Shown here: positions 11,086 to 39,197 of the stretch, in pieces
Layout: each line of letters begins with the position of its first letter
Position numbering within the stretch: position 1 is the stretch's first letter
Assembly: GCA_949293325.1 (NCBI GenBank)
Contig: CASFCZ010000104.1
Span: 1 to 44,998 of the forward strand
Reading direction: 5' to 3'
Source: an uncultured Eubacteriales bacterium
GTDB taxonomy: Bacteria > Bacillota > Clostridia > Lachnospirales > CAG-274
Length of the DNA stretch: 44,998 nt
The notes under the pieces: model-generated
What the model saw: the letters and a program-made list of their open reading frames with translations, nothing else
Database searches by the model: none
Told to the model about the DNA's origin: nothing
Translations under genes and position numbers: made by a program

Positions 11086-11238
11086 TTAAAAGTCAAATAC
11101 ATTTGTATAGGAATTAGTACCTACTCCTTCTGGATATGTATGCCTGTATACAGCACTTCTCTCTATGCTTGTGCTTATTTCATCCTTACCACTAAGGCAG
11201 ATAATTTCCATTTCAGGCTTGGAATATGTTTTCTTCAT
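11086..11238 (-). CDS. 50-residue hypothetical protein coupled to the pectinase gene
   Basis: This short gene follows the lyase-esterase gene. Its ATG at 11238 shares one base with the upstream TGA (an alternative ATG at 11241 overlaps it by four), and a GGGAGGG ribosome site lies inside the last lyase codons. The product begins MKKTYSKPEMEIICLSGKDE and ends TNVFDF; it has one Cys, no signal peptide and no membrane segment. The opening K-x-Y-x-KPE-x-E-I-I pattern recurs, to my knowledge, in many tiny uncharacterised proteins of gut Clostridia. Function unknown. Ribosome site, coupling and a terminator right after it argue that it is real. Confidence 0.7.
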   Translation of the reverse strand: MKKTYSKPEMEIICLSGKDEISTSIERSAVYRHTYPEGVGTNSYTNVFDF

Positions 11239-14200
11239 CATAATCCCTCCCTTGCTGTTACAGTAATGCTTATTGGTGTACCAAACTTATAGATAGGATC
11301 AATATCAATAGTATCACTGTTATGCCTTGCATCATATTTAATATATGGCACTACACGTATTTCACCGCTTTTTGCAATATCATCAATTATGCCAGTACCA
11401 AAGTAAACACCGCTTTCTCCTGCCGGTACAGACTTCAGGGAATACTCCTGTCCCTTTTCTGTCGCTATACTTTCATACAGGGTAGTAGTTTTAATTGTAT
11501 TGGTATCTGTTATCTTATCAGCTGATGCATTTGCCTCACTTACAAAACCTACCTCAATAATATCCGGCAGAATATTTTGTATAAATCTGCTGTCCATACC
11601 TCTGCCAAAATCACCGACAAGAAGAACACTGTTCCTGTTTTCAAATTCTATTACAGGTGTTGTACCGTTCATTTCAAAGAGATCCAGGGCAGTCACATTT
11701 GAGGTTGCTATCAATTCAGAACTGCTGTCGCTGCCTGCATATACATTAAACGAAAAATCATTTATAGAATGGGAGCGGCCGCCTCCTGTTGAACCTCCAA
11801 AGCCCATAAGCCCCTTTGTACCAAGAGTAACATCATGATCCATACCATAAATATTAAGTGTCTGGGAATTATCCGAACGATCCTCCCATGGCCTACCATA
11901 GTAGAAATTTTTAACAACACAAGTATCATCAAATAAAAGTTTACCACCATTTACCGTCCACTGAGCCATCTGGCTTGGTGCAAACACATAACAATCATCC
12001 TTGCTTGTTAATGCACCGGTAAATATTCTAAACTCACAGTTGTTAAAATCAACTATACTTGAACCGCATATAAAGTCAGTTGCTCCGTAGAATATGCAGT
12101 TGTTAAAGGTCTGCTTAAGAAGTGGATTACCTGAAGAATAATGATAAATATTTACTGTATCCTGAACACTTATAAATTTACAATTCTCATATACACTGTT
12201 ATCACCGTCTGAAATAATTGCAGCTCCCGTTGTACCGTTTGATGATACAGCATCAATATCCCCATAGGATGCATTAATATTATTTAAAAAGGTAATGCCT
12301 TTAATCGTAACGTTTGCTGCGGAAACCCGTACAGCACCCTTCATACTACCGCCATAGGTACCATCGGAGGAATAAATCACAACTTCATCTTCGCTGTTTT
12401 CTGCCTTTTGAAGACTTACCGACTTATTTACCTCAAAACTTTCATTATAGTATCCCGGTTTGATATATATTACAGAGCCGTCAACTGTAGTATCTGCATT
12501 AATGGCATCTGTTATGGTAGAATAGCCTGCTGTAAACGAGCCATCACCATTGTAAACAAGTACATTCTGTGCCGCCCTGCTAATTACGGAATTTACTGTT
12601 ATATCCCCATCCACCGTAAATACGGCAGGATCAGGAGTCAGGCTCTTATCTGAAACTGATATGGAATATGTGCCTTTAACCAGTGTTAATACCTTACTGA
12701 CTGCAGAATTTGCTCCTACAGTTATACTGTTATCTCCAACTGTAAGATTTGCTTCTGTATCTGTATTATTTTTAATATTAAGGGTAACACTGTACTCCTT
12801 TTCAGGTTCTTCACCGCCATCATCTGTTGATAATATGGCTATCTTGTATAAAAGTGACTTGCTGCTGCTTACAATCTTAAGTGTGCCGCCCTTTTCGGTT
12901 GTCACAACTATAGGCGTTGCATCTGCATCCTTTCTGCCTGGCATTGTATAACTGCCAAGGGATGTACCATCAAAGCTGACAGAGGCACTGCCCTTAGGAG
13001 AGTTATCATCTGTTGCAATATAAATACTTACTATTGAGTCTGAAGAAAGACTTATGCTTATTTCAGATCCTGCCGTACCTGAATAACGCTTCGATAAGTC
13101 TGCCACATCACTATCTGTATTTTGGAAAACAATATGTGATGAGCTGTTAGATCCCTGTGTATAGCCATTTAATGTAAGCCATGATGGTATAGCCATATCT
13201 GCCGTCCACATATCCGTTGCAACAGGCACAACAGTTGTACTTTCGGTAGTTTGTTCCTCCACTGTCGTCGTGCCCTCTGTTATTCCTGTTGTTGTAGTTT
13301 CCGTAGGCTGTTCCACAGAATCTACATTAGTCTTCACAACAGGTGAGGTGTAATTAATTATAGCAGACTGTAATTCAGGATCAATATCCTTAAGGTCATC
13401 ATCCTCTGCTGAGAATGTCCACTTAAAATCACCACCATTTAATCTGCCTGCTTCAGCCATTACCTCCAGCTTTGCTTCCTCAGCAGTATCTGGATTATAG
13501 CTATACATAATATCCGGATTTGTATCAAAGTTATTATATACCGATCCTCCGGAAAGTGCCGTAACCGTTGAAGGAACCTGTTCATCAGGACTTAAAACAC
13601 TATAGGCATCTATTTGACCTTCATCAGGGGTAGTAAGCTGAGTATAGAACCTCTTTGCGCCCTCAATAACATTGCCATACTCCTTGATCATACCTCCTGT
13701 CTGACCTGAAAGTGTTCCCTCTGTTTTATATGTACCTGTTGCACTGTCATATACGTCACTGCCCTGAGATGCTATTATCATAGGTCTGTCACAGTTACGG
13801 AAATAATTACTTTCCACAAAAAGTGATGATTGAACTGCTGCTCCCACGCCGTACACACTGTTACCATCGTAATAATTATTATAAACATGCACACTGCCGG
13901 CAACACATCGAGGGTGACGTGAATCGGAATGATCAAACCAGTTATGATGATAGGTTACAAATATTTTTGCCTCAGGATCATCAGGATTTTTTGCTTCCCA
14001 GACTCCACCTGCCACACAACTTTTGCCGGAGTCCCAAAAATGACAGTATGAAACAGTAACATAATCTGTTCTTGCCTTCAGGTCAATGGACCCATCTCCC
14101 TTTGCCTGATCACTGTCCTTGCCGGGAGCCCCATAGAAAAAGTCTATATTATGTATCCATATATTTTTATTTTCCGTGTCAAGAGAAAGACTGTCACCAT

Positions 14201-14999
14201 CTCCTCCAACTCCACCATACCACATAATTCCGATGTTACGTACTTCTATATTACATGCCCTTTTCATGGTAAAGCCCCAGCCATGTACTGTAGCATCATC
14301 ACCTATACCTTCAATAGTTATATTACTGGTATCCTGAAGGCGAAGCATATAGTTTTCAACACCACCTGGCATCTCAACTTTACCTATGATACGAACTATA
14401 AGAGGAGTAGTTATTTTGTTACTTTGCCTGTAGGCCATTATACCATTAAATCCTACGCCCTTAGTGCTGTCTCCATTTATGGTAACACTGTCCTTGTTTT
14501 CATTTGTAACATACACAATATCCGCTCCGCTGTTTACACTGCCGTCAGCATTATATCCGCCTGTGGTATTTCCATAGGGAGAATTTTTTGAAAAGGCAAA
14601 GCCCTCCCTGACAAAGCTATCAACTGTAAGTACGTCACTTATTGCCTCTGTGCTTTCCCTACCATCTACAACAGGAACTACCTTCAGTCTATAGTTGCCG
14701 GGAGTCAATCCCGGAACATCAGCCCTTATATAGTTGGCATACTCCCTTATCAGTTCCTTATCAACCAGAGTATAACTGCCTCCCACCGGTGCAACATAAA
14801 CATTGTAGCTTTCTGCACCGGGTACAGCCTGCCACTTAATATAGGCACTTTCATGCCATCCACTGCTTTCAACTATTACCGGTGCTTCCTCAGCTGCATA
14901 TACAATACTTTGACCTATAGGTAAGGCCGACCGTAGAGGTAAGGTTGGTGCTACCATTACCGCAGCTAAAAGCAATCCTAAAATTTTTTTACTTTTCAT
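11238..14999 (-). CDS. Secreted bifunctional pectate lyase (PL1) - pectin methylesterase (CE8)
   Basis: The 1253-residue protein has a signal peptide (1 to about 35), a fibronectin-III-like domain (about 40-125) and a PL1 pectate lyase right-handed beta-helix (about 130-520). Lyase signatures are DGSIDLKARTDYVTVSYCHF (Ca-binding Asp region) and SRHPRCVAGSVHVYNNYYDG with the conserved Arg. A Thr/Glu-rich linker (about 565-600), two beta-rich modules (to about 820) and a CE8 pectinesterase (about 825-1140) follow. CE8 signatures are FISVQDTVN, GATDFICG and YGRPWEDR, giving both catalytic Asp and the Arg. The esterase would demethylate pectin so that the lyase can cut it. No dockerin was seen. 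The start at 14999 follows AAAGGAG. Confidence 0.9.
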   Translation of the reverse strand: MKSKKILGLLLAAVMVAPTLPLRSALPIGQSIVYAAEEAPVIVESSGWHESAYIKWQAVPGAESYNVYVAPVGGSYTLVDKELIREYANYIRADVPGLTPGNYRLKVVPVVDGRESTEAISDVLTVDSFVREGFAFSKNSPYGNTTGGYNADGSVNSGADIVYVTNENKDSVTINGDSTKGVGFNGIMAYRQSNKITTPLIVRIIGKVEMPGGVENYMLRLQDTSNITIEGIGDDATVHGWGFTMKRACNIEVRNIGIMWYGGVGGDGDSLSLDTENKNIWIHNIDFFYGAPGKDSDQAKGDGSIDLKARTDYVTVSYCHFWDSGKSCVAGGVWEAKNPDDPEAKIFVTYHHNWFDHSDSRHPRCVAGSVHVYNNYYDGNSVYGVGAAVQSSLFVESNYFRNCDRPMIIASQGSDVYDSATGTYKTEGTLSGQTGGMIKEYGNVIEGAKRFYTQLTTPDEGQIDAYSVLSPDEQVPSTVTALSGGSVYNNFDTNPDIMYSYNPDTAEEAKLEVMAEAGRLNGGDFKWTFSAEDDDLKDIDPELQSAIINYTSPVVKTNVDSVEQPTETTTTGITEGTTTVEEQTTESTTVVPVATDMWTADMAIPSWLTLNGYTQGSNSSSHIVFQNTDSDVADLSKRYSGTAGSEISISLSSDSIVSIYIATDDNSPKGSASVSFDGTSLGSYTMPGRKDADATPIVVTTEKGGTLKIVSSSKSLLYKIAILSTDDGGEEPEKEYSVTLNIKNNTDTEANLTVGDNSITVGANSAVSKVLTLVKGTYSISVSDKSLTPDPAVFTVDGDITVNSVISRAAQNVLVYNGDGSFTAGYSTITDAINADTTVDGSVIYIKPGYYNESFEVNKSVSLQKAENSEDEVVIYSSDGTYGGSMKGAVRVSAANVTIKGITFLNNINASYGDIDAVSSNGTTGAAIISDGDNSVYENCKFISVQDTVNIYHYSSGNPLLKQTFNNCIFYGATDFICGSSIVDFNNCEFRIFTGALTSKDDCYVFAPSQMAQWTVNGGKLLFDDTCVVKNFYYGRPWEDRSDNSQTLNIYGMDHDVTLGTKGLMGFGGSTGGGRSHSINDFSFNVYAGSDSSSELIATSNVTALDLFEMNGTTPVIEFENRNSVLLVGDFGRGMDSRFIQNILPDIIEVGFVSEANASADKITDTNTIKTTTLYESIATEKGQEYSLKSVPAGESGVYFGTGIIDDIAKSGEIRVVPYIKYDARHNSDTIDIDPIYKFGTPISITVTAREGL

Positions 15000-15048
15000 T
15001 ATATGACTCCTTTCCATATTGAACCTTATTCGCCTTAGTGACAATTCA

Positions 15049-15076
15049 AGTATATATCTATATCCCATTTTTTCAA
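15049..15076 (-). promoter_or_regulatory. Sigma-A promoter of the pectinase operon
   Basis: Minus-strand TTGAAA (15071-15076), 16-base spacer, TATACT (15049-15054), giving a leader of about 40 bases. No recognisable cre (catabolite) site was seen. Confidence 0.55.
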
Positions 15077-34009: not shown

Positions 34010-34885
34010 ATGAATTCAACACCTGATATTTACTTTCCTAACTTAGGAATAAGTATTGATAATATGGACAGGGTAGCATTTAGCCTGTTTGGATTTGATG
34101 TATACAAATACGGGGCAATAATATGCTTTGGAGTAATACTTGGCATTGCCCTTGTAATATACCGTGCAAAAAGGAGTGGACAGGATCCGGATATATATAC
34201 TGATTATGTGTTCTGGGGTATACTTTTCGGTGTGCTGGGTGCAAGGTGTTACTATATGATATTCCATGCAGGTACATTGAAAGGCTTTTTTGAGATACGC
34301 AGCGGGGGACTTGCCATTTATGGAGGTATAATAGGTGCAGTTCTTGCCCTGATTGTATACACACGTATAAAAAAATATCCCCTGCTCCTTTTCACAGACA
34401 CTGCTGTAACCAGTCTGGTGCTGGGCCAGCTTATAGGGCGCTGGGGCAACTTCGTAAACAGAGAAGCCTTCGGCGGACCTACAGAAAGTATATTTGCAAT
34501 GGCGTACAAAGCAAGCCAGGTACCGGGGCTTGATATAACCGACAGTACCTCTGCCATTTACAACGGCTATGCCACATATCCCTTGCACAATTTAAATGGT
34601 ACAGACTATATATGGGTACACCCAACCTTCCTGTATGAAAGCTGCTGGAATATACTGTTGCTTATACTCCTACTAGTATTAATCAGGCACAAAAAGTTCG
34701 ACGGACAACTAACAGCAACATACTTTATCGGATACGGTGCAGGCAGATTTATAATAGAAAGCATGCGTACAGATCAACTGCTTATATTCGGCATACCCGT
34801 AAGTATGCTTCTTTCTGCAGTGCTTGTAATAGTCGGCATAATATTTACTATATATAACCTTATCAAAGTAAAGGCAAAAAAATAA
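34010..34885 (+). CDS. lgt: Prolipoprotein diacylglyceryl transferase
   Basis: Lgt attaches diacylglycerol to the cysteine of prolipoproteins in the membrane. The 291-residue polytopic protein has the family signature GRWGNFVNREAFGG, the conserved SGGLAIYGGIIGA and the C-terminal GAGRFIIESMRTD. It starts behind AGCGGAG. The ComEC-like lipoprotein at 24531-25655 would be one of its substrates. A terminator overlaps its stop. Confidence 0.96.
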   Translation: MNSTPDIYFPNLGISIDNMDRVAFSLFGFDVYKYGAIICFGVILGIALVIYRAKRSGQDPDIYTDYVFWGILFGVLGARCYYMIFHAGTLKGFFEIRSGGLAIYGGIIGAVLALIVYTRIKKYPLLLFTDTAVTSLVLGQLIGRWGNFVNREAFGGPTESIFAMAYKASQVPGLDITDSTSAIYNGYATYPLHNLNGTDYIWVHPTFLYESCWNILLLILLLVLIRHKKFDGQLTATYFIGYGAGRFIIESMRTDQLLIFGIPVSMLLSAVLVIVGIIFTIYNLIKVKAKK

Positions 34886-34911
34886 CGGGTCCACCATACC
34901 CGTTATTTTTT
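34881..34911. terminator. Terminator after lgt, usable in both directions
   Basis: AATAACGGGT (34881-34890) pairs with ACCCGTTATT (34898-34907) around seven bases, followed by T to 34911. On the other strand the stem is also followed by T, so it could end the leftward RNA described below. Confidence 0.88.
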
Positions 34912-35077
34912 CATACATTTCCCTGACATAACAGGGAAGGCGAAGCACCTCATTTTGTCCAAAACACATAACATAAATAAAAAGCACAGAGGAAGGAGTC
35001 TTTATTTATAAGATTTATCAATATAAGGAGAAAACAAAATGAGGCGCCGGAGATAAACTCCAACGCCTTTGTTGTAT
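34881..35077 (-). ncRNA. Candidate leftward structured RNA in the lgt-XRE gap
   Basis: A perfect promoter (35084-35112) fires leftward into a region without a gene. The RNA would open with a hairpin (35058-35068 with 35042-35052; fully paired only on this strand through two G-U pairs). Bases 35035-35046 can pair with 34946-34957 (12 positions, one G-U), an arrangement that competes with that hairpin. Inside are an AU stem and a pyrimidine loop CUCCUUCCUCU, then a hairpin TTCCCTG/CAGGGAA. The end is either just after the first hairpin (about 50 bases; weak T run) or at 34881 (about 195 bases). Family not recognised. This accounts for the 308-base gap. Confidence 0.5.
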
Positions 35078-35083
35078 GGGCAT

Positions 35084-35193: not shown

Positions 35194-35544
35194 TTATCCT
35201 TTCAACTTATCCTTTTTTGCAGAATTAACAATAACAACAAACTCCGAAAGAATATTTTCCAAAATACTCAAATTAGCATCACTCAAATTCATAAGCATTT
35301 CCGCAACAGGTGTTTTCATATCAGAAAGATTTTCACGTCCCATTAGCAAGTAATCGGATGATAAATAAAACTTATCACATATCTTGTATAGAGTTTCAGC
35401 AGACATACCTTTCTTTCCATTCTCCAATTCAGCCAGAAATTGGGGAGAAATGTCTATCATTTCCGCAAAAGTTTCCCTCGATAATGACAACTTTTCTCTC
35501 TGCTTACGCAACCTTTTTCCTATTATAACTTTATCCAATTCCAA
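35194..35544 (-). CDS. XRE-family helix-turn-helix regulator
   Basis: The 116-residue protein has an N-terminal Cro/C1-type helix-turn-helix (about residues 7-62: GKRLRKQREKLSLSRETFAEM, then SPQFLAELENGKKGMSAETL) and a short helical C-terminus that may dimerise. A TTG at 35544 is preferred because GAGGTG lies six bases upstream; the in-frame GTG at 35553 overlaps that site. It is divergent from the dockerin/cohesin genes, and palindromes in the shared region suggest it represses them and perhaps itself. The signal it senses is unknown. Confidence 0.85.
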   Translation of the reverse strand: MELDKVIIGKRLRKQREKLSLSRETFAEMIDISPQFLAELENGKKGMSAETLYKICDKFYLSSDYLLMGRENLSDMKTPVAEMLMNLSDANLSILENILSEFVVIVNSAKKDKLKG

Positions 35545-35573
35545 AAAAATCACCTCAAATTATATTTTAGTTA

Positions 35574-35602
35574 TTGCTTTTAGCTTATAAATATGCTATA
35601 GT
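35574..35602 (+). promoter_or_regulatory. Promoter of the dockerin-LRR/cohesin operon
   Basis: TTGCTT (35574-35579), 17-base spacer, TATAGT (35597-35602) with TGC before it (extended -10). Start expected near 35609. Confidence 0.6.
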
Positions 35603-35646
35603 TTAAATATAAGCTAATAGCGTAAAACTTTTATGCTATCAGCTTA
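35581..35646. promoter_or_regulatory. Two palindromic operators in the XRE divergent region
   Basis: Site 1 (35581-35598) is TAGC...GCTA within the promoter spacer. Site 2 (35610-35646) is a 37-base palindrome, 16 of 18 positions paired, with half-site TAAGCTAATAGCGTAAAA, lying just after the expected transcription start. Both share AGCTTA/TAAGCT and TAGC elements. Binding by the XRE protein would block the LRR/cohesin promoter; this is inferred. Confidence 0.65.
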
Positions 35647-35670
35647 ATATATATCTATAAGAGGTGTAAT

Positions 35671-37863
35671 ATGTATTATTTTTCAACGAAAAAAGGGGGC
35701 TTGCTTATGTTAAAACAAAATCTTACAAAATGCTGTTTTATTCTAGTGCTTATGTTCGGCTGTATTACAGGTACACAACTGACAGTTTGTGCAGATGAAG
35801 CAAATGATACAGCAGTCAGCAGTGCTGCACTTACTGCTTATAGTTCATCAAACAACAGTTATTCTGTGACAGGAGGCAAAATATATTACAAAATAACAAA
35901 CGGTAATGTATATATAACAGACTGTGACAGCAATGTTACAAGTGCTGTTATACCTCAAAATTTGGACGGATATCCCGTTATAGAAATTTCGGAAAATGCC
36001 TTTAAGGAAAACAAACTACTAAAAAACGTAACAATTCCTATATCTGTAACAGATATAGGCCGTTCAGCCTTTCAGGATTGTGATTCTCTCACCTCTATCA
36101 CAATTCCTTCATCTGTAACAAATATAGGCCGTTCTGCCTTTCAAGATTGCGGTCTGTTAAACTCAGTTACTTTAAACGAAGGATTATACCAAATAGGAGG
36201 CGAAGCCTTCAGAGGCTGTCCTAAACTCACGGAAATAACTATTCCATCAAGCGTAAAAAGCTTAAAATCTTACCCAGGTGCTGCTTTTGCGGACTGTACG
36301 GCACTTCAAAAGGTAACCATTAAAAACGGTGTTCCTCATATAGGCGAACGTACCTTTCAAGGCTGCACAAAGCTTACCGAAATATCTATTCCGACAAGTG
36401 TAAACGAAATATGCGATTATGCCTTCAGCGGATGCAGCGGTCTTAAAAGTGCTACGATTTTCTGTGGTGCAGGAGCAATAATAAACTCATATGCTTTTAA
36501 TGACTGCAGTGGATTAACTAACCTTAATATGACAAACAGCAGAATAGTATCCATAGGAAGAGCCGCTTTCAAAGGTTGTACTGCCCTAAAGTCAATTGTT
36601 GCTCCATCTAGCCTATTGGAGATTGAAAGAGAGGGGTTTATGGACTGTACTTCTTTAAGAGCATTAAATCTTAACGAGGGTTTAACTACGCTTGGAGATG
36701 CTGCTTTTAGAAACTGCACTTCTCTTTCGGAGATCACTCTGCCTTCAACACTCAATACCGTAAACGGTTATTGGGGAGGTGCTTTCCAAGGATGTACTTC
36801 CCTTAAATCAGTTACTTTTAAGGAGGGCATCTCTGTTGTTGGTGAATATATGTTTAATGACTGCACCTCATTAACAAATGTAAATCTTTCAAAAACGATA
36901 ACATCCATCGGAAATAACGCCTTTGAAAATTGCACAAAACTAAGTAAAATCATCATTGCACCTACAGTTGCAATGACTATAGATGAATACGCTTTCAGGA
37001 ACTGCTCGGGGCTAAAGGAGCTTAAACTGCAGTCTAGTACCATAACACAAATAGGCAGAAGTGCTTTTGAAAACTGCACAGCACTAAATACAGTTACAAT
37101 TCCGGGTTGTGTTGTGAGTATAGGCAGAAACGCTTTTGCAAGTTGCTCATCACTTGTTTCCTTATATCTTAACGAAGGTATACAATCAATAAATGATGGT
37201 GCTTTCCTCGGATGTATTTCACTTAAGGAAGTCACTATTCCGGCAAGTATATCAGAAATAGGTGGATATTGGGGCGGGGCTTTTGAAAACTGTACCTCGC
37301 TTGGCTCTGTGAATATAAAAAACGGGGTAAACAGCTTGGGTGAGCAGATGTTTGAAGGGTGCAGTACACTTACATATATAATATTGCCAGGTTCCATTAC
37401 AAATGTACCTGACAGTTGTTTCAACAACTGTACAAGCTTAAGTATTGCAATAATTGAAGATGGTATACAAGCAATAGGCAGCGATTCTTTTTATGGCTGT
37501 AATTCACTGTCAAAAGTATACATACCGGACAGTATGCAAACTATAAATAAGAATGCATTCAGGAATTGCCCTCAAACCATGGAATTGATATATAAAAACT
37601 CAAGTGCAATTGAAACCTTCTTTTCAGATAGCAGTATAAACTGTGCAAAAAAAGCTGTCACTTATTCACGAACTATAGGCGACGTAGATCCAAATGGTGA
37701 TGGAAAAATTACAGCAAACGATGCAATGTTTGCCTTAAGATGTTCAATAACACCAGGCTTACTCACCGGAGACCGCCTTGCTGCGGCGGACTATAACGGT
37801 GATGGCAAAGTTACTTCAAACGATGCTTTTCTTATATTAAGAAGAAGTTTACAAGATATGTAA
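35671..37863 (+). CDS. Secreted BspA-type leucine-rich-repeat protein with C-terminal dockerin
   Basis: The 730-residue protein has a signal peptide, about two dozen leucine-rich repeats of the BspA/Treponema type (AFxxCxxLxxVTIPxxVxxIG, residues about 110-640) and a type I dockerin (about 667-730) with two full Ca loops, DPNGDGKITANDA and DYNGDGKVTSNDA. BspA repeats mediate binding to host or bacterial surfaces. The ATG at 35671 has AGAGG six bases away; an internal ATG at 35707 also has a purine-rich site and would give a more usual signal peptide. Three exact-length superrepeats of 166 residues are visible. The cohesin gene follows 16 bases later. Confidence 0.9.
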   Translation: MYYFSTKKGGLLMLKQNLTKCCFILVLMFGCITGTQLTVCADEANDTAVSSAALTAYSSSNNSYSVTGGKIYYKITNGNVYITDCDSNVTSAVIPQNLDGYPVIEISENAFKENKLLKNVTIPISVTDIGRSAFQDCDSLTSITIPSSVTNIGRSAFQDCGLLNSVTLNEGLYQIGGEAFRGCPKLTEITIPSSVKSLKSYPGAAFADCTALQKVTIKNGVPHIGERTFQGCTKLTEISIPTSVNEICDYAFSGCSGLKSATIFCGAGAIINSYAFNDCSGLTNLNMTNSRIVSIGRAAFKGCTALKSIVAPSSLLEIEREGFMDCTSLRALNLNEGLTTLGDAAFRNCTSLSEITLPSTLNTVNGYWGGAFQGCTSLKSVTFKEGISVVGEYMFNDCTSLTNVNLSKTITSIGNNAFENCTKLSKIIIAPTVAMTIDEYAFRNCSGLKELKLQSSTITQIGRSAFENCTALNTVTIPGCVVSIGRNAFASCSSLVSLYLNEGIQSINDGAFLGCISLKEVTIPASISEIGGYWGGAFENCTSLGSVNIKNGVNSLGEQMFEGCSTLTYIILPGSITNVPDSCFNNCTSLSIAIIEDGIQAIGSDSFYGCNSLSKVYIPDSMQTINKNAFRNCPQTMELIYKNSSAIETFFSDSSINCAKKAVTYSRTIGDVDPNGDGKITANDAMFALRCSITPGLLTGDRLAAADYNGDGKVTSNDAFLILRRSLQDM
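36055..37548 (+). repeat. Three tandem 498-base superrepeats in the LRR gene
   Basis: Units start at 36055, 36553 and 37051 (each at the codons for IGR) and each encodes 166 residues, about seven LRRs. Landmarks recur at the same offset: LNEGL/LNEGI at 36175, 36673 and 37171, then a PGAAF, YWGGAF, YWGGAF segment. The copies have diverged but kept exact length. Confidence 0.8.
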
Positions 37864-37879
37864 TGTAGGAGGAATTAAT

Positions 37880-39142
37880 ATGAAAATATCAAAACTTATT
37901 GCAGCCTTAATGTTTATTGTAATAACACTTTCTTGTTTCGGCATTAACACCTTTGCGGCAGATGCCACAATCGCTGTAAGCAGCGTAAGATGCAATACAG
38001 GTGAAACGGTTCAAGTCCCCATTAGTATCAGCAACAATAGCGGACTTACCGATATACAGTTTAATGTAAACTTTGATAGTCTTTGCCTTGAATATTTAAG
38101 CTGCGAAACAACAAGCGATATATTTGCACTTGCATCTACCACCAACAGCGGCAATAAACTTTCTTATTCTGCAATGAATGCGGACCAAACAACAGACAAC
38201 GGTATACTTCTCACAATAACATTCAAAGTAATATCAGATGAACGTCTTAACAGTGAAATCACAATCAGCGATATATTAGCTAACGACTTCGTAACAGCTA
38301 AAAATATTGAAATATCAAACGGAAAAGTTTCCATAGGTGGTTCTTTTGTTTCTACAACCGAAAGCACAACAAAACAAAGCATCGAAACCACCACTGTACA
38401 AACCATCGAAACTTCCACAGTTCGAACTACTGAAGCTTCTACCGAGATCACTACAAGGCAAACCACCACTGAACATACAACTGCAATACCTACATTTGAA
38501 ACCACAACACAACATTTAACGGAAACAAATACAGAAGCCACAACCAAAGTGACTGAATTCGCCACAACTTCTGCTACTACAACCACCAAAAAATCTATTG
38601 TTAATAACGATTACGAAGTGGATACTGAAACCACAACAAAAAGCGGAGGTAAATCTTCAAGTAAAGCAAGTAATAATCTCACATCCAAAAGCCAAACTGA
38701 GGTTACAACAGAAGCAACATCAATCAATACGAATGAGAATCGCGAAAATACAGTTAGTGTAATTATTGGCGAAAACAAACTATATAAAAATGGTATTGCA
38801 GTTATAATGGACGCTGCCGCATATATTCAGCCATCAAGCAACAGCACAATGATACCATTAAGATTTGTATCCACAGCAATTGCCGAAATAAAAGGATTTA
38901 ATGCAACCGTAAGTTGGGAAAGCAAAACAAAAACCGCAAAAATAACTTACCAAAATCATAATATCTCTTTTACGGCAGGCAGTAATACAATGTATGTTAA
39001 TGGTAATCCTGTAGTCATGGAAAATGGAGTTAAGGCAGAGATTAATAACGACAGAATGTATATTCCTTTCAGGGCATTGGGAAATGCAATGGATATAAAT
39101 GTCAGCTGGGACGCACAAAGTAAAACTGCAATCTACAAATAA
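37880..39142 (+). CDS. Cohesin-domain surface protein with Thr-rich linker and copper-amine-oxidase-N-like (stalk) domain
   Basis: The 420-residue protein has a signal peptide (1 to about 27), one cohesin domain (about 29-152; NTGETVQVPISISNNSGL, then IQFNVNFDSLCLEYL and GILLTITFKV), a long Thr/Glu linker (about 155-290) and two C-terminal repeats of the copper amine oxidase N-terminal (stalk) type (about 294-420; MIPLRFVSTA and YIPFRALGNA). Cohesins bind dockerins; the adjacent upstream gene and at least two others here encode dockerins. No LPxTG, SLH or membrane anchor is seen, so attachment to the cell may be through the stalk domain or the protein may be released. It starts behind AGGAGG and is followed by a terminator. 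Confidence 0.85.
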   Translation: MKISKLIAALMFIVITLSCFGINTFAADATIAVSSVRCNTGETVQVPISISNNSGLTDIQFNVNFDSLCLEYLSCETTSDIFALASTTNSGNKLSYSAMNADQTTDNGILLTITFKVISDERLNSEITISDILANDFVTAKNIEISNGKVSIGGSFVSTTESTTKQSIETTTVQTIETSTVRTTEASTEITTRQTTTEHTTAIPTFETTTQHLTETNTEATTKVTEFATTSATTTTKKSIVNNDYEVDTETTTKSGGKSSSKASNNLTSKSQTEVTTEATSINTNENRENTVSVIIGENKLYKNGIAVIMDAAAYIQPSSNSTMIPLRFVSTAIAEIKGFNATVSWESKTKTAKITYQNHNISFTAGSNTMYVNGNPVVMENGVKAEINNDRMYIPFRALGNAMDINVSWDAQSKTAIYK

Positions 39143-39152
39143 AAAATAATAC

Positions 39153-39197
39153 AAACAGGCTCTATTAAAAAAAATAATTAAAATGGAGCCTGTTTTT
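39153..39197 (+). terminator. Terminator of the dockerin-LRR/cohesin operon
   Basis: Fourteen pairs (39153-39166 with 39182-39195, one G-U), A-rich loop of 15 bases, then TTTTTC. Confidence 0.85.

Follow-up and report, generated by a model that had tools for sequence, protein, structure and literature searches.

Cohesin-dockerin pairs have mostly been studied within enzyme complexes. Non-cellulosomal pairs, such as that of Clostridium perfringens NagJ, join large secreted hydrolases. Dockerins are also found on leucine-rich repeat (LRR) proteins; such LRR-dockerin proteins are reported for Ruminococcus flavefaciens FD-1 (PMC2930009, where Table 2 gives 28 LRR modules). Invertons occur near surface genes in gut bacteria, including Clostridia (PMC11892184). 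The searched literature contains LRR-dockerin proteins and no LRR-dockerin/cohesin pair, and nothing in it links dockerin proteins with phase variation. A dedicated cohesin-dockerin adhesin unit that combines an LRR-dockerin protein with switchable control is not found in this literature. Here we describe a candidate for such a unit on contig CASFCZ010000104.1 of an uncultured Eubacteriales bacterium (assembly GCA_949293325.1). The whole analysed stretch of 44,998 nucleotides is referred to as the window. The unit consists of an LRR-dockerin gene, a cohesin gene and a divergent regulator gene of the XRE family. With moderate confidence, we read the LRR-dockerin and cohesin genes as a two-gene, non-enzymatic adhesin display unit in which the cohesin-dockerin match would be private and expression would be under on/off control.

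The features of the unit, in window coordinates, are as follows.

35194-35553, minus strand: XRE-family (HTH_19/HTH_3) transcriptional regulator of 119 aa, divergent from the pair (Pfam).
35554-35670, no strand: divergent promoter/operator region of 117 bp, with three GCTATTAGCTTA copies overlapping likely promoter elements.
35671-37863, plus strand: secreted BspA-type LRR protein with a C-terminal two-loop dockerin (about 37680-37860) (Pfam).
37880-39142, plus strand: secreted cohesin protein, with the cohesin at 37964-38344, a Thr-rich stalk at about 38345-38720 and a PF07833 domain at about 38732-39139.
39153-39196, plus strand: shared terminator-like hairpin past the two-gene unit (folding).

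The LRR-dockerin and cohesin genes are on the same strand, are separated by 16 bp and encode proteins with signal-peptide-like N-termini. The hairpin after the cohesin gene has a 14-bp stem (-18.2 kcal/mol, z -7.3) and is followed by a U-run. Both the 16-base gap and the shared terminator had been pointed out in a preliminary description of this DNA. The true start of the LRR-dockerin gene is probably the ATG at 35707, since in the congener G001 the ATG further upstream is not in frame. In Pfam scans, the regulator matches HTH_19 (E 1.1e-13) and the LRR protein contains six stretches of LRR_5 (PF13306; E 9.3e-137), as in BspA-type LRR proteins. Residues 673-722 of the LRR protein match Dockerin_1 (PF00404; E 1.4e-8, above the cut-off). 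This dockerin has two F-hand-like calcium loops, DPNGDGKITAND and DYNGDGKVTSND, and is of type I. Neither protein of the pair contains an enzyme domain in the Pfam scans.

A Pfam scan of the entire cohesin protein missed the cohesin, and a scan of the domain alone recovered it (PF00963; E 5.9e-13, 49.7 bits against a cut-off of 24.1). In the whole-genome profile search it scores 48.8 bits against the same cut-off. Profile matches include the type I cohesins 4ums, 5nrk and 3ul4, and the modelled cohesin of the relative L221 matches the type I cohesins 6kgd, 5nrk and 4ums (TMt about 0.73-0.75). By profile and by the fold modelled for this relative, the domain is a type I-like cohesin of PF00963. 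These matches bear out the XRE gene, the divergent LRR-dockerin and the cohesin on a Thr-rich stalk that had been proposed earlier, including the assignment of residues 29-152 to the cohesin. The cohesin protein had been presented as a single cohesin on a stalk; these domains are real, but the PF07833 domain (copper amine oxidase N-type; E 8.3e-24, Pfam) that closes the protein had been overlooked.

The AlphaFold2 model of the window PF07833 domain has a predicted local distance difference test (pLDDT) score of 93.5 and a predicted template modelling (pTM) score of 0.87. A search of solved structures with this window domain as the query gave no match. The PF07833 domain is closest in fold to the solved N-terminal domain of copper amine oxidase from E. 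coli, which points to no ligand. The window genome has 23 PF07833 matches, and in several of its secreted proteins the domain is C-terminal and follows Ser/Thr-rich stretches. Among 91 related proteins, 73 have the domain five or fewer residues from their C-terminus, in a search biased toward it. No LPXTG or S-layer homology (SLH) element is seen at the end of the window cohesin protein. PF07833 is likely to be the surface-retaining end of this protein.

The neighbourhoods of cohesin-PF07833 proteins and of stronger cohesin matches were surveyed in 48 genomes of one uncultured gut Clostridia family. The relatives, gathered by sequence, are uncultured gut Clostridia, many of them from rabbit, and include Candidatus Gallispira edinburgensis. 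An LRR-dockerin gene and a cohesin-PF07833 gene are same-strand neighbours at 17 loci in 13 of the 48 genomes. The preliminary description had regarded a cohesin beside an LRR-dockerin as unusual, which does not hold for this family. In 16 of the 17 pairs, the dockerin gene comes first and the cohesin gene second, with 1-37 bp between them; the pair at L123 is in the reversed order with a 118-bp gap. At L120, an extra dockerin protein with GBS_Bsp-like repeats sits between the LRR-dockerin and cohesin genes. At L116, L174, L179, L186 and L196, the LRR protein carries its own cohesin ahead of the dockerin, so that chaining head to tail or recruiting a third partner is conceivable. The cohesin-PF07833 protein at L171 has no dockerin neighbour. 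In a sample of 392 genomes across the order, among the matches listed, all that cover the cohesin end of the model fall in this family, and those outside the family cover the PF07833 end only. The genes flanking the pair vary between genomes, as expected if the unit moves or is rebuilt.

Two further arrangements were seen in the survey. At L121 (4190-6106; contig C99 of G047), a dockerin-like gene precedes a cohesin-PF07833 frame that is interrupted by a single in-frame TAA; this pair is either decayed or misassembled. A second conserved unit is present at L173, L175, L176, L177, L184, L187, L189, L191 and L193. At L177, it comprises a pectate lyase-CBM77-cohesin-dockerin protein, then a dockerin protein of about 250 aa with a weak cohesin match, and then a third secreted gene. 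The L177 unit lies near a small PF07833 protein and looks like a small pectin-degrading complex.

Across 16 pairs, the dockerin and cohesin distances are correlated with r 0.75 (0 of 5000 permutations). The partial correlation is 0.73 when the PF07833 domain is allowed for. Distances of the PF07833 domain correlate at 0.28 with those of the dockerin and at 0.24 with those of the cohesin. Normalised BLAST scores give 0.72 for dockerin and cohesin, compared with 0.40 for the dockerin and its own LRR region and 0.16 for the cohesin and its own PF07833 domain. For example, L118 and L169, both in G024, share 77% of the PF07833 domain and 24% of the cohesin. Across G024 and G041, L166 and L169 share 86% of the cohesin and 61% of the PF07833 domain. 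Because dockerin and cohesin diverge together across pairs, we infer that the match at the joint between them is maintained through exchanges of heads and anchors. The earlier proposal of an adhesive rather than enzymatic complex is partly supported by the recurrence of a self-contained pair in 13 genomes, by the joint divergence and by the lack of an enzyme domain, but its binding and adhesion parts remain presumptive.

The window genome is 1.96 Mb in 106 contigs and is 94.8% complete. In a profile search it contains about 24-30 dockerins, and the three dockerins counted in the preliminary description are an undercount for the genome. The search for further cohesins that had been proposed alongside finds two over the cut-off, one of which is the window cohesin, and two weak ones. 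The second cohesin over the cut-off belongs to a Thr-rich protein that ends in SLH-like sequence. The window dockerin is unlike the other dockerins of the genome in its helix residues, and the others mostly share another helix signature. On the minus strand at 11238-15068, the window also encodes a large protein with pectate lyase and pectinesterase domains.

These numbers bear on an alternative in which the cohesin is a general docking point that serves as anchoring scaffoldin in a small complex for pectin degradation, with the LRR-dockerin protein as one client among many. The many dockerins and the two over-cut-off cohesins fit this alternative, as do the pectate lyase-cohesin-dockerin proteins of the family and the pectate lyase/pectinesterase protein of the window. 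We nevertheless consider it unlikely. The two domains diverge in step from pair to pair, two pairs in one genome can have very different cohesins, and the other dockerins, with their mostly different helix signature, have the SLH-type cohesin protein available to hold them. Somewhat less probable again is a released LRR-dockerin protein, acting mainly as a substrate- or cell-wall-binding factor in the medium, with the pair assembling at a target surface or in a biofilm matrix and not on the producer. The cohesin protein ends without a visible LPXTG or SLH element and the anchoring role of PF07833 is presumptive, which would allow for release; a C-terminal PF07833 domain after Ser/Thr-rich stretches, mostly at the very end of the protein in the biased search above, is the usual surface-retaining layout and argues for retention. 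A chance meeting of two unrelated secreted proteins is very improbable. Only the abundance of dockerin genes speaks for it, and the conserved adjacency already contradicts it, with 17 pairs spread over 13 genomes, short intergenic gaps and flanking genes that differ.

Several observations limit the case for a private, surface-displayed adhesin pair. The genome holds about 24-30 other dockerins, and the window dockerin-cohesin pair may therefore not be exclusive, although the window dockerin differs from them in its helix residues. A few close pairs drive much of the dockerin-cohesin correlation (Spearman 0.39). Dockerin and cohesin are adjacent in the DNA, and physical linkage alone could hold them together. 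The solved fold nearest to the supposed PF07833 anchor is an amine oxidase domain. A linked AlphaFold2 model was made of the dockerin, signal peptide and cohesin of the relative L221, which are naturally in frame, with the stop codons read as a residue. This model has a pTM of 0.54, with a moderate dockerin and a well-formed cohesin (pLDDT about 95). In trial alignments, several dockerin rows were misaligned onto the cohesin, and the dockerin part of the model is weakened because the final alignment kept only four dockerin rows.

In the 117-bp gap between the XRE and LRR-dockerin genes, the GCTATTAGCTTA copies lie at 35576-35587 (plus strand), 35610-35621 (minus strand) and 35635-35646 (plus strand). 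Each copy holds a GCTANTAGC-like dyad, in agreement with the palindromic operators described earlier. Across the 45 kb, GCTATTAGCTTA has 7 matches where 6.9 are expected, and 4 of these are in the gap, including an overlapping one on the opposite strand. With a helix-turn-helix domain of the Cro/CI class and repeated operators in its own promoter, the window XRE protein is a candidate autoregulator. In the congener G001 (Lgt 91% identical), the same site beside lgt holds a near-identical XRE protein and the start of an LRR gene. G001 and the window hardly differ in the first two operator copies and about 72 bp of surrounding sequence, and the adjacent coding sequence has diverged more. The G001 contig breaks inside the LRR region, which limits the comparison there. 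Near this contig end (L288, 9607-10104), the LRR gene runs into an opposite-strand MATE-type gene, as either an assembly chimera or a true truncation.

No LRR-dockerin/cohesin pair is seen beside lgt in the congener G002. G006 also has a divergent XRE gene, which is non-orthologous. The G006 protein is only 18.5% identical to the window XRE protein, so control by XRE has probably either been gained repeatedly or diverged strongly. The preliminary description had suggested looking for XRE, LRR-dockerin and cohesin genes together. The LRR-dockerin/cohesin pair recurs as described above, but an XRE gene is seen at this site only in the window, G001 and G006, and the XRE gene is rejected as a conserved part of the module.

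A likely structured small RNA of about 200 nt lies between lgt and the XRE gene (34870-35078, minus strand; -69.9 kcal/mol, z -7.3), with a terminator at its end. Its promoter (35112-35084) is the sole perfect TTGACA-N17-TATAAT in the window. The small RNA is 93% conserved in G001, and an Rfam search with it gives nothing near the gathering score.

In the relatives, the gene preceding the pair is often a small site-specific recombinase, of the Tyr type (L118 and L179) or the Ser type (L119, L186, L194 and L196). Recombinases of the two families together number roughly 8-24 per genome outside the window genome. Because they are common in these genomes, the upstream inverted repeats weigh more than the recombinase neighbours. 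Inverted repeats of at least 15 bp and at least 88% are present within 1 kb upstream of 6 of the 13 pairs with enough sequence (shuffles give about 0.04 each). Between the repeat arms of L118, L179 and L196 lies a perfect TTGACA-N17/18-TATAAT promoter. Each of these promoters faces away from the LRR gene, which corresponds to the off state. Perfect promoters of this form number 18 in 973,044 strand-bases of the surveyed neighbourhoods.

The sole further repeat-enclosed perfect promoter in 486 kb is before a lectin unit of G002 (L183, 1192-6928). This unit has a perfect 27-bp repeat, a Tyr recombinase, a lectin-cohesin-dockerin protein and, last, a cohesin protein with a Thr-rich stalk and no PF07833 domain. 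The first protein contains an NlpC/P60-like domain (weak), a C-type lectin, a ricin-type lectin, a cohesin and a dockerin, with the lectins in the place of the LRR region. At L118, L179, L196 and L183, the inverted repeats are 21-30 nt long with 90-100% identity, a perfect promoter is in the spacer and a recombinase is beside it. By their anatomy, these loci are candidate invertons. L119 and L194 share their 20-bp repeats and their spacer orientation, without a strong promoter. An inverton in the window is rejected, as no such repeat is upstream of the pair. The window genome has no match to PF00239 (Ser recombinase) and one match to PF00589 (integrase). The earlier idea that a repressor switches the display stands as regards switchable expression in principle, but the XRE gene is not general and elsewhere its place is often occupied by recombinases and inverton-like repeats.

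From these sequences we infer a private binding match, a surface anchor in PF07833, an adhesive LRR head, a repressor in XRE and a switch by inversion, which would combine in the adhesin display unit as follows. Two secreted proteins are encoded by a tight co-directional gene pair. The PF07833 C-terminus would hold the cohesin protein at the cell surface and the Thr-rich stalk would lift the cohesin outward. The dockerin of the LRR protein would plug into the neighbouring cohesin as a private lock and key, as the joint divergence suggests, and the LRR array would then be displayed as a ligand-binding head. In the window, XRE would act through the operator copies as a repressor of both its own gene and the pair; several relatives would instead switch by means of a recombinase and an invertible promoter. 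Over evolution, head and anchor would be exchanged and the dockerin-cohesin joint would remain matched. A broader proposal is that the family uses phase-variable, mix-and-match display, in which a private joint carries exchangeable heads (LRR or lectins) on a host-specific stalk, under promoter inversion in several lineages and an XRE repressor in that of the window. This proposal is more tentative and may prove wrong slightly sooner than right.

If the display unit is real, the cohesin-dockerin coupling is used to separate the binding head of an adhesin from its anchor. It would also account for part of the large set of LRR-dockerin proteins whose role in gut Clostridia and ruminococci is unknown. 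Studies of specificity and protein engineering would gain a diverse natural set of at least 17 dockerin-cohesin pairs.

The unit shares its cohesin and dockerin blocks with the cellulosomes and minicellulosomes of Clostridia and Ruminococcus, and the cohesin modelled for a relative is similar to those of type I. It is not a cellulosome, in which a scaffoldin with several cohesins gathers dockerin-bearing enzymes. The unit has only one cohesin (one relative has two), and the pair includes neither a carbohydrate-binding module nor an enzyme. Its dedicated LRR partner is in the next gene, a PF07833 end replaces the SLH or sortase motif, and a recombinase or XRE gene is at the head. The cohesin of C. 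perfringens NagJ likewise uses the coupling outside cellulose digestion, and NagJ cohesins are among the weak profile and fold matches. Unlike NagJ-type pairs, the unit joins an LRR head to a stalk and anchor protein in a conserved two-gene arrangement. PF13306 repeats are common to BspA-type LRR adhesins and the window LRR protein, but the latter has a dockerin at its end and no recognised anchor of its own. As in phase-variable surface proteins under invertons, the relatives have 20-30 bp repeats, 99-130 bp spacers, a promoter inside, a recombinase beside and a surface gene downstream. In the relatives, however, the cargo is a cohesin-dockerin pair.

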